64,000 bases of DNA from Luteolibacter sp. LG18 (lineage in GTDB: Bacteria > Verrucomicrobiota > Verrucomicrobiia > Verrucomicrobiales > Akkermansiaceae), in the NCBI RefSeq assembly GCF_036322585.1, contig NZ_AP024600.1, positions 1,178,001-1,242,000 on the forward strand, written 5' to 3'. The position numbers and the translations under genes were made by a program. The notes under the pieces were generated by a model. That model saw only the letters and a list, made by a program, of their open reading frames with translations, searched no databases and was not told the DNA's origin. Shown one piece after another: positions 27,377-29,502 of this stretch; the stretch's first letter is position 1, and every line of letters starts with the position of its first letter.

Positions 27377-27393
27377 AGCAACCGCCGTGCCAA
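27377..27393 (-). promoter_or_regulatory. sigma-54 promoter of amt
   Basis: TTGGCACGGCGGTTGCT on the reverse strand matches the sigma-54 consensus TGGCACG-N4-TTGC at every conserved base, with the -24 GG and -12 GC at the required 10-base spacing. It lies 75 bases upstream of the amt start codon, so expression is expected under nitrogen limitation through an NtrC-type activator. Confidence 0.9.
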
Positions 27394-27669
27394 GTTCCCG
27401 CGCGCCACCAAAGCCCTTCTTTTTCTCCAACAAAAAAGCCGATTCTCCCCTTGCCAACGAAGTCTTCCGGCCCTTAAAAATGAAGGCAGCGGACCGCATT
27501 CCGCCCCGTTTCCCCTAGACAAGATCCTCAAGAAGAGTTAAATAACTCGCCCGGAAGGTCAACGTCACGGGGGTTTCAGGCCCGCGGGATGCACCACCCC
27601 AAATGCTTTTCCTATCAAGCCGCCCTGCGGTCCGGTCAGGAAAGACACCAGCAACCGAAAACAGAAACC

Positions 27670-28488
27670 ATGATGCGCAACTATCGCAAAACCATTGGCG
27701 CCCTGGCCGCAGCCTCCGCCCTCGTGGCTGGCTATGCCTCGGCTGAAGTCGAAGGCGAACTTCACATCGGCTACAGCTCCGACTACATCTTCCGTGGTTC
27801 CGACCAGGGTGATGGCCTTGCCGAAGCCGGTGCCGACGTCTCCACGCAGTACGCCGGTCTCACCTTCTCGGGTGGCCTGTGGTACGGCTCCATCGAGAAC
27901 AGCGACCTGTTCAACTTCGGCCCGATCGGTATCCCGGACCACTACAGCGAGCTCGACGTCTACGGTGAAGTCTCCAAGGACTTCGGCTTCGCGACGGCTT
28001 ATGTCGGTGCCATCTGGTACCACTACGCCGACAACGACATCGCCACCCCGTTCGGCGACATCAAGCTCCGCGACGACTCCTCGGAACTCTACTTCGGCCT
28101 TAGCCGCGAGATCTACTGGGGCATCAACGGCTCCCTTACCTACTACTGGGCCCTGGAAGGTGAAAACGGTGGTTACACCGAACTCGCCCTCGACAAGACC
28201 TTCAAGCTCCACGACTGCGTCGATCTCGTCGCCGGCGTGAAGACCGGTTACTTCATCGAGGAAAGCGGTTTCGCCCACATCACCCCGCAGCTCACCCTCA
28301 ACGTGAAGGTCACCGACACCTTCACCGTGAGCCCGTACGTCGCCTACTCCATCGAAGGTGACGAGCTGGCCACCGTCTACGGCAACAACAAGATCCAGGC
28401 GGTTGCCAACGCCCTTTCCGGCGGCAACTTCCCGCCGAGCGAAACCAACCACTTCTACGGTGGCGTGAAGCTCTCGGTGAAGTTCTAA
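27670..28488 (+). CDS. TorF family putative porin, copy 1
   Basis: A 272-residue outer-membrane beta-barrel precursor. The signal peptide ends GYASAEVEG, and the mature part has alternating aromatic beta-strands starting HIGYSSDYIFRGSDQGDG and ending HFYGGVKLSVKF with a terminal Phe. It is about two-thirds identical by eye to the second copy downstream. It diverges from amt, which is 367 bases away. In several other bacteria such porins lie beside ammonium transporter and PII genes. No sigma-54 site was found for this copy. Confidence 0.82.
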   Translation: MMRNYRKTIGALAAASALVAGYASAEVEGELHIGYSSDYIFRGSDQGDGLAEAGADVSTQYAGLTFSGGLWYGSIENSDLFNFGPIGIPDHYSELDVYGEVSKDFGFATAYVGAIWYHYADNDIATPFGDIKLRDDSSELYFGLSREIYWGINGSLTYYWALEGENGGYTELALDKTFKLHDCVDLVAGVKTGYFIEESGFAHITPQLTLNVKVTDTFTVSPYVAYSIEGDELATVYGNNKIQAVANALSGGNFPPSETNHFYGGVKLSVKF

Positions 28489-28532
28489 TCACCCGGCCGC
28501 GGCTCCTCACGGACCGCGGTTAGAGATTACCT

Positions 28533-28567
28533 GGGAGCGGTCGCGCGAGCGACCGCTCCCTTTTTTT
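28533..28567 (+). terminator. strong rho-independent terminator after porin copy 1
   Basis: A 12-bp stem (GGGAGCGGTCGC / GCGACCGCTCCC) with GCGA loop, followed by seven T residues. Confidence 0.93.
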
Positions 28568-28568
28568 G

Positions 28569-28593
28569 CCCCGGCTCCAACCGGGGGTTTTTT
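28569..28593 (+). terminator. second terminator hairpin
   Basis: CCCCGG / CCGGGG stem followed by a G and a six-base T run, directly behind the first terminator. Two terminators in series isolate porin copy 2. Confidence 0.7.
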
Positions 28594-28619
28594 GTTAGGA
28601 GGGAACATTCCACCTCCCT

Positions 28620-28636
28620 TTGGCACGTTGGTTGCT
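28620..28636 (+). promoter_or_regulatory. sigma-54 promoter of porin copy 2
   Basis: TTGGCACGTTGGTTGCT matches TGGCACG-N4-TTGC at all conserved positions, with the -24 GG and -12 GC 10 bases apart. It lies 66 bases before the ATG of the second TorF gene and only 27 bases after the terminators. Confidence 0.9.
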
Positions 28637-28701
28637 AGAAGCTGGAAATGGTATCCCCGGGGGCCACCGTCCCCCGGAACCGTTACCCGAAACCGAAAAC
28701 C

Positions 28702-29502
28702 ATGATGCGCAACTATCGTAAAACCATCGGTGCCCTCGCCGCTGCTTCGGCCCTCATCGCGGGCCACGCCTCCGCGGAAGTCGAAGGCAACATCCACATC
28801 GGCTACAACTCGGACTACATCTTCCGTGGCTCCGACCAGGGCGACGGCATGGCCGAAGCCGGTGCCGACGTTTCCACCGAGTACATGGGTCTGAAGTTCG
28901 CCGGCGGCCTCTGGTACGCCTCCATCGAGAACAGCGACCTGTTCAACCTCGGCCCGGTCGGCATCCCCGATCACTACAGCGAGCTCGACGTCTACGGCTC
29001 CGTGTCCAAGGACTTCGGCTTCGTGACCGCCTCGGTCGGCTACATCTGGTACCACTACGCCGAGAACGACATCGCCACCCCGTTCGGCGACCTCAAGCTC
29101 CGCGACGACGCCCAGGAAATCTACTTCAGCCTGGCCCGTGAGATCTACTGGGGCATCAACGGCTCCCTCACCTACTACTGGGACATCGAGACCGACAACG
29201 CCGGCTACACCGAGCTGGGCCTCGACAAGACCTTCAAGCTCCACGACTGCGTCGATCTCGTCGCCTCCGTGAAGACCGGTTACTACCTCGAGGAGAGCGA
29301 GTGGGCCCACGTGACCCCGTCCCTCACCCTCAACGTGAAGGTCAGCGACACGCTCACCATCAGCCCGTACCTCGCCTACTCCGTCGAGCTCGACGGTCTC
29401 GACACCGTGGCTGGCAACAACAAGATCCAGAGCCTCATCGGCGTGCCGCCGGGCGAGACCAACCACTTCTTCGGTGGCATCAAGGCCTCCGTGTCGTTCT
29501 GA
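28702..29502 (+). CDS. TorF family putative porin, copy 2
   Basis: A 266-residue outer-membrane beta-barrel precursor: signal peptide ending HASAEVEG, mature strands beginning NIHIGYNSDYIFRGSDQG, and a C-terminal Phe. It lacks about eight residues before the last strand that copy 1 has. The ATG-ATG start matches copy 1. It has its own sigma-54 promoter and a terminator, so it can be expressed alone under nitrogen control together with the ammonium transporter. Confidence 0.83.
   Translation: MMRNYRKTIGALAAASALIAGHASAEVEGNIHIGYNSDYIFRGSDQGDGMAEAGADVSTEYMGLKFAGGLWYASIENSDLFNLGPVGIPDHYSELDVYGSVSKDFGFVTASVGYIWYHYAENDIATPFGDLKLRDDAQEIYFSLAREIYWGINGSLTYYWDIETDNAGYTELGLDKTFKLHDCVDLVASVKTGYYLEESEWAHVTPSLTLNVKVSDTLTISPYLAYSVELDGLDTVAGNNKIQSLIGVPPGETNHFFGGIKASVSF

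Follow-up and report, generated by a model that had tools for sequence, protein, structure and literature searches.

An ammonium transporter gene and a neighbouring porin gene share candidate sigma-54 promoters that point to a nitrogen-regulated outer-membrane pore

Ammonium uptake has been studied at the inner membrane, and the outer membrane is usually regarded as freely permeable. A gene for a small outer-membrane porin that lies next to an ammonium transporter gene (amt), and that appears to share its type of promoter, raises the question of whether passage through the outer membrane might also be regulated by nitrogen supply, and for which solute. We address this question for a 64-kb stretch of DNA (hereafter 'the window') in which amt is divergent from one porin gene (porin 1), with a second (porin 2) next downstream (Table 1).

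Table 1. Features of the amt-porin locus in window coordinates; promoter and terminator entries are predictions.
Feature	Position	Strand	Remark
amt, ammonium transporter, 508 aa	25776..27302	-	PF00909, TIGR00836
Candidate sigma-54 promoter of amt, TGGCACGGCGGTTGC	27378..27392	-	exact consensus
CTTGCCA element, porin-directed	27450..27456	+	in 31/75 amt upstream regions, 1/27 P-II upstream regions
Sigma-70-like element of porin 1, TAGACA-N17-TAAATA	27516..27544	+	TGGACA in most relatives
Decayed sigma-54 site of porin 1, AGGCCCGCGGGATGCA	27578..27593	+	aligns with TGGCACGCGGGATGCT of relatives
Porin 1, TorF-like outer-membrane barrel, 272 aa	27670..28488	+	79% identical to porin 2
Terminator-like hairpin after porin 1, 12 pairs then T7	28533..28560	+	strong
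Second terminator-like hairpin	28569..28586	+	weaker; 5 such in region versus 1.9 expected
Candidate sigma-54 promoter of porin 2, TGGCACGTTGGTTGC	28621..28635	+	exact consensus
Porin 2, TorF-like outer-membrane barrel, 266 aa	28702..29502	+	predicted fold

A first-pass annotation of this DNA had claimed that one sequence before amt and one before porin 2 match the sigma-54 consensus at every conserved base, and had noticed no other such sites in the window. Both observations were borne out by a consensus scan, which found two zero-mismatch matches to TGGCAC-N5-TTGC in 64 kb, where 0.18 are expected; two or more exact matches arose in just one of 100 shuffles of the window, and the zero-mismatch matches to the longer TGGCACG-N4-TTGC are the same two sites and no others. 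Each has GG at -24 and GC at -12, and each is well placed, the amt site with its first base 90 nt from the amt ATG (27302) and the other pointing at porin 2, 81 nt from ATG 28702. The mechanically assigned reading-frame start of porin 2 (28648) would coincide with the point where transcription is predicted to begin, which makes ATG 28702 the more probable start codon. When up to two mismatches to TGGCACG-N4-TTGC are allowed, the window contains 24 matches against 26.17 expected, and these looser matches thus carry no numerical meaning.

The genome-wide scan that had been proposed as a check returned 19 exact TGGCAC-N5-TTGC sites in the whole genome (5.80 Mb, one contig) versus nine for a reversed control, or seven versus one when A or G was required at position 7. 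We placed all 19 relative to predicted coding frames. Six are gene-directed with room for a leader, and precede amt, porin 2, the P-II gene (TGGCACGCCCGTTGC, 44 nt before the ATG), rpoN, a MoxR-type AAA gene and dnaK; a seventh (L021) is too near the start of a DUF2383 gene, and the remaining 12 lie within predicted coding frames. The exact sigma-54-like sites ahead of dnaK and the MoxR-type AAA gene (L013:1501-1515 and L022:1501-1515) may be chance matches.

The sigma-54 gene itself and possible activators, both named in the first-pass annotation as things to look for, are present. There is one rpoN match in the genome (E 3.7e-57), preceded by a perfect sigma-54 site whose 15 bases are identical in G000 and G117 (L023:1501-1515, L267:523-537), which suggests that rpoN may control itself. 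The same 15-mer occurs, by sequence match alone, in G044, G057 and G114. The sigma-54 activator domain has eight matches in the genome, four of which look like true activators: RtcR and three proteins with a receiver domain, two of these three beside a histidine kinase by eye. Against the NtrC model TIGR01818 the three response regulators score 438.7, 433.6 and 358 bits, all under the cut-off of 558.6, so that by profile they are to be called NtrC-like only. A search for an enhancer element common to the amt and P-II upstream regions found none. Two conserved motifs, CTTGCCA and CTGGACA, were considered as nitrogen activator sites and rejected: of 27 P-II upstream regions, one contains the former and none the latter. 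Because they are nearly absent there, we read them as porin-directed elements instead, CTTGCCA being a possible second sigma-70-like promoter or regulator site.

The pairing of amt with this porin recurs well beyond the window. We searched for the porin in 97 genomes of the family and found it in 74, with 92 matches. At least 52 of these lie less than 5 kb from amt, in at least 45 genomes, with amt divergent in at least 36 cases and upstream on the same strand in at least 16; the others are on contigs without amt among the matches listed (35) or farther off (5). A second set, which may overlap the first, comprises 43 named loci; because it was collected by means of a common peptide pattern, close relatives are over-represented in it. 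At 37 of these loci amt is divergent. The related porins come from records that carry the labels Akkermansiaceae, Verrucomicrobiaceae, Luteolibacter, Haloferula, Prosthecobacter or Akkermansia, which places the window's organism in this section of the Verrucomicrobiota. Thirteen of 14 amt-less genomes are also without the porin, versus 10 of 83 amt-carrying genomes, a co-absence that is largely that of one genus (g14) and weak as independent evidence. Near 14 of the best homologues from other families of the order (flanks of up to 1.5 kb, shorter at some contig ends) no amt was found, and as far as we looked the pairing is a family trait among the homologues examined. Four of those 14 loci contain a sigma-54-like site, counted irrespective of its placing relative to genes.

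Two further arrangements were noted. A third porin copy in G117 (L167, G117:C1:3644492-3645190), 62% identical to porin 2, lies far from amt, and the 350 nt scanned for it contain no sigma-54 site. In locus L163 of G126, amt is followed by a run of three porin-like genes, of which only the middle one has a perfect sigma-54 site.

The sigma-54 sites recur before amt and before many porins across the family, as the first-pass annotation had proposed to verify. For this comparison we used the window and 60 fetched stretches, which cover most of the linked and some of the unlinked porin matches (the remainder being mostly weaker and unlinked), and counted sites that score no more than 1 and lie no farther than 140 nt from a start. 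Such a site precedes 38 of 55 amt genes, a total from which four fragmentary or truncated genes were omitted, and 26 of 69 porin genes; it appears in 0.04% (amt) and 0.09% (porin) of dinucleotide shuffles. An opposite-strand control gave nine matches for amt and none for the porin; the nine are probably sites of divergent neighbours. At the 43 named loci the counts are 34 of 37 amt genes and nine of 43 porins, one of each excluded for missing upstream DNA. Luteolibacter marinus NBU1238 (L223), for instance, has amt and the porin divergent, a near-consensus site ahead of amt and none found ahead of the porin. Predicted sigma-54 control thus does not extend to every porin: within the window's own clade, the majority of these genes have no good site.

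Sites were also found at other nitrogen genes. Among the best 30 of 81 P-II-carrying genomes, 28 P-II loci have a site 42-100 nt upstream, a raw count to be read without the shuffle baselines, which cover amt and porin; the two misses (L111, L114) belong to genus g16. In G066, a member of genus g14 in which amt, P-II and the porin were not found, two perfect divergent sites stand between the genes for glutamine synthetase III and glutamate synthase. Taken with the sites at P-II and amt, this pair makes sigma-54 seem tied to nitrogen assimilation in the family. The pair itself spans L266:2910-3245 (G066:C1, 1617409-1617744), its sites being ~320 nt apart; comparable pairs occur in G076, G085, G092, G099, G113 and G127, further members of g14, a genus in which none of amt, P-II and the porin was detected.

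What distinguishes the two porin genes of the window? The first-pass annotation had suggested that they may be expressed under different nitrogen conditions because porin 1 was without a sigma-54 site. No consensus site is present, but the decayed AGGCCCGCGGGATGCA occupies the homologous place, at -92 (~-94 in relatives), retaining GG and GC with three of 11 fixed positions altered; porin 1 is therefore not simply siteless, and it also has a sigma-70-like element. A difference in expression nonetheless remains probable. In an alignment of 20 hand-picked divergent intergenic regions the amt site is almost unchanged, TGGCAC and the GC of the -12 part being invariant, and the porin side has, ~154 nt ahead of the porin start, a porin-directed TGGACA, together with a sigma-54 site at about -94 that is found in every state from intact to lost. 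A wider set of 61 loci was picked for this layout once we knew of it, and consists of the window, the 43 named loci and 17 of the 60 stretches. It yielded 56 distinct porins whose upstream DNA was long enough. TGGACA, with at most one mismatch, lies at -146 to -159 in 50 of these 56, compared with 7.3% in base shuffles, and an intact sigma-54 site (at most one mismatch) is present in 19. A strict sigma-70 scan of the region called no promoter.

The tandem copies are consistent with a sharing-out of these two elements. In the window, G117 and L201, the first copy has TGGACA and a decayed or absent sigma-54 site, and the second has an intact sigma-54 site (TGGCACGGTGGTTGC before the porin 2 counterpart of G117) and no TGGACA. 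A tree places the window duplication before the split from G117 and apart from that of L201, with support of 99/91 for the porin 1 pair and 100/98 for the porin 2 pair, and of only 90/77 for the four together. In other genera, tandem porins that do not have this layout show no such split of promoters: L140 has a perfect site on the amt-near copy and none on the other, and both tandem copies of L138 and L139 are without TGGACA. It seems that an ancestral double promoter was divided between the duplicates, leaving porin 1 mainly with a sigma-70-like promoter and porin 2 with sigma-54 only, a possible natural case of duplicates sharing out such a promoter. A strong terminator-like hairpin stands between the two porin genes; the region has five terminator-like sites versus 1.9 expected, and the weaker hairpin beside it may thus be chance.

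The leader of the porin mRNA deserves separate mention. It is highly conserved (window:27594-27669 and relatives), with CAGCAAC invariant in the 20 aligned regions and, by eye, no clear Shine-Dalgarno sequence. A leader hairpin is weakly supported (six pairs, four with changes on both sides, -3.39 kcal/mol, 17 sequences).

The protein assignments differ in strength. The amt product matches PF00909 above the curated cut-off (E 1.2e-113, 380.3 bits, from residue 84) and TIGR00836 with 419.3 bits against a cut-off of 343.3, and by eye has an N-terminal signal-peptide-like extension. The name TorF, given to both porins in the first-pass annotation, survives as a weak resemblance and is otherwise a sub-threshold label: against TIGR02001 they score 16 (porin 1) and 21 bits, the cut-off being 47.15. 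PF09694 (Gcw_chp) has no match in the window's genome, and neither porin matches any Pfam family. An AlphaFold2 model of porin 2, built with 39 aligned sequences, reached a pLDDT of 83.9 and a pTM of 0.79 and has 12 long strands by hand count. Together, model and sequence display a barrel fold, an N-terminal signal helix and a C-terminal aromatic residue, and porin 2 is predicted to be an outer-membrane barrel of the 12-stranded type. Its closest structural matches are KdgM, VhGalP, PcoB and NanC (Z 15-17, 7-10% identity); autotransporter barrels and others are nearly equal (Z 14-15.7), so no one family is singled out, and a fold in common reveals no substrate. A search of solved structures with the porin profile returned two non-barrel matches (E 0.08-0.18), and one of plasmids found no match to porin 2.

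Composition is no better guide to the cargo. Most of the 39 aligned porins are amt-linked; as a group they are acidic, with a median of -10.6 charges per 100 residues, and contain little nitrogen compared with seven window proteins. We considered a nitrogen-sparing or cation-selective porin adapted to amt and rejected it: 14 homologues without a nearby amt are equally acidic (p 0.05, if anything more), so that acidity is no argument for ammonium, and they are even poorer in nitrogen (p 7e-5).

We propose the following reading. When nitrogen is scarce, an NtrC-type activator would wake the sigma-54 RNA polymerase at amt, the P-II gene, porin 2 and probably rpoN itself. Amt would then form the inner-membrane ammonium channel as porin 2, made simultaneously, opened a small pore in the outer membrane, and permeability to ammonium, or to another small nitrogen solute, would rise in both membranes together. 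Porin 1, which faces amt, would be served mainly by its sigma-70-like promoter, with porin 2 as the nitrogen-only copy. That amt and porin 2 are both under sigma-54 control is, from their upstream DNA, very probable, and nitrogen limitation is the likely signal. The proposal as a whole, a sigma-54 nitrogen regulon that includes amt, P-II and porin 2 and in which the ammonium cargo is a guess, we consider reasonably likely. The view that the porin is nitrogen-regulated, put forward in the first-pass annotation, gains from its company with amt and P-II in this apparent regulon; its role as outer-membrane partner of ammonium uptake is something we infer from the linkage to amt and the shared promoter type, which point to nitrogen scavenging, and ammonium as the key cargo is tentative, falling somewhat short of probable.

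Several other readings deserve to be weighed against this one. Coincidence has some footing in the genome-wide scan, where a reversed control already gives nine exact matches against 19, and where 12 of those 19 fall in predicted coding frames; the placing of the two window sites, the near-zero shuffle rate and the conservation over many genomes contradict it, and that both are chance matches is extremely improbable. The conserved TGGACA might be a regulator-binding site for the divergent promoters and not a sigma-70 promoter, since the porin sigma-54 position follows ~60 nt downstream of it, the amt site is 131-163 nt away, and the strict sigma-70 scan of this region of the window was negative. 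This we think unlikely: CTGGACA is in none of the 27 P-II upstream regions, TGGACA is retained where the porin sigma-54 site has decayed, and an A-containing hexamer follows 16-18 nt on in most layout porins, by a loose criterion.

The cargo is more debatable. Ammonium should pass general porins, which speaks for another cargo. The porin could be nitrogen-regulated and yet serve amino acids, small peptides, amino sugars or urea, its adjacency to amt reflecting shared control; the nearest solved barrels include the solute-specific channels KdgM and VhGalP, and OprD of Pseudomonas aeruginosa is described as directly controlled by NtrC (PMC13029640). Against this, the recurring neighbour is amt, in a check of neighbouring genes that covered amt; we regard this alternative as a serious one, though less likely than not. 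Sigma-54 has also been put forward as a regulator of the cell exterior in bacteria (PMC3162934), and the porin might belong to such a programme as an envelope-remodelling gene with no special nitrogen role. Its linkage to amt tells against this, as do the further well-placed sites before P-II and, in G066, beside the genes for glutamine synthetase III and glutamate synthase, and we judge it improbable.

In the boldest version, which strikes us as doubtful, the family has a dedicated Amt partner in the outer membrane, a small sigma-54-controlled ammonium pore with ancestral housekeeping and nitrogen promoters split by duplication in the window's lineage; that lineage would then have one housekeeping pore and one nitrogen-only pore, and outer-membrane permeability would be a regulated step of ammonium scavenging. 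All the same, a porin gene linked to amt by its place, and in many genomes also by its type of promoter, offers a testable case of a regulated outer-membrane step. The data also sketch a sigma-54 nitrogen regulon for a little-studied group, comprising amt, P-II, the porin and probably rpoN, to which glutamine synthetase III and glutamate synthase are added in a relative.

Among literature titles and abstract openings, in which subscription journals were thinly covered and absence is thus unproven, we recognised no amt-linked, sigma-54-controlled porin. The nearest prior idea found is one sentence on an anammox porin: KSMBR1_3177 of Kuenenia stuttgartiensis is upregulated under ammonium limitation, and its authors suggest that it may raise ammonium influx (PMC7438415). 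That porin differs in having a BBP2 domain; the section on it is silent on amt linkage and promoter, and the word 'sigma' is absent from the main text (PMC7438415). The GlnK-NtrB/NtrC-OprD pathway of P. aeruginosa, in which NtrC is described as acting directly on the porin gene (PMC13029640), resembles our proposal in placing a porin gene under NtrC, although OprD is another porin. With TorF/Gcw_chp (TIGR02001, PF09694) the resemblance is weak and extends over most of the length; 25 of the 39 aligned porins match TIGR02001 and 10 match PF09694 (E 0.01), whereas both window porins are far under the TIGR02001 cut-off and have no Pfam match. KdgM and NanC, which carry acidic sugars, share the predicted fold (best Z 16.6 and 15.7, a fold match only), but at 7-10% identity, and the window porin is strongly acidic. 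The NtrC/sigma-54 nitrogen regulon is known from glnK-amtB of Proteobacteria. There as here, sigma-54 sites precede P-II and amt, and rpoN and NtrC-like activators are present in the genome; here, in contrast, the P-II gene lies apart from amt, and the porin gene adjacent to amt has the same type of promoter.
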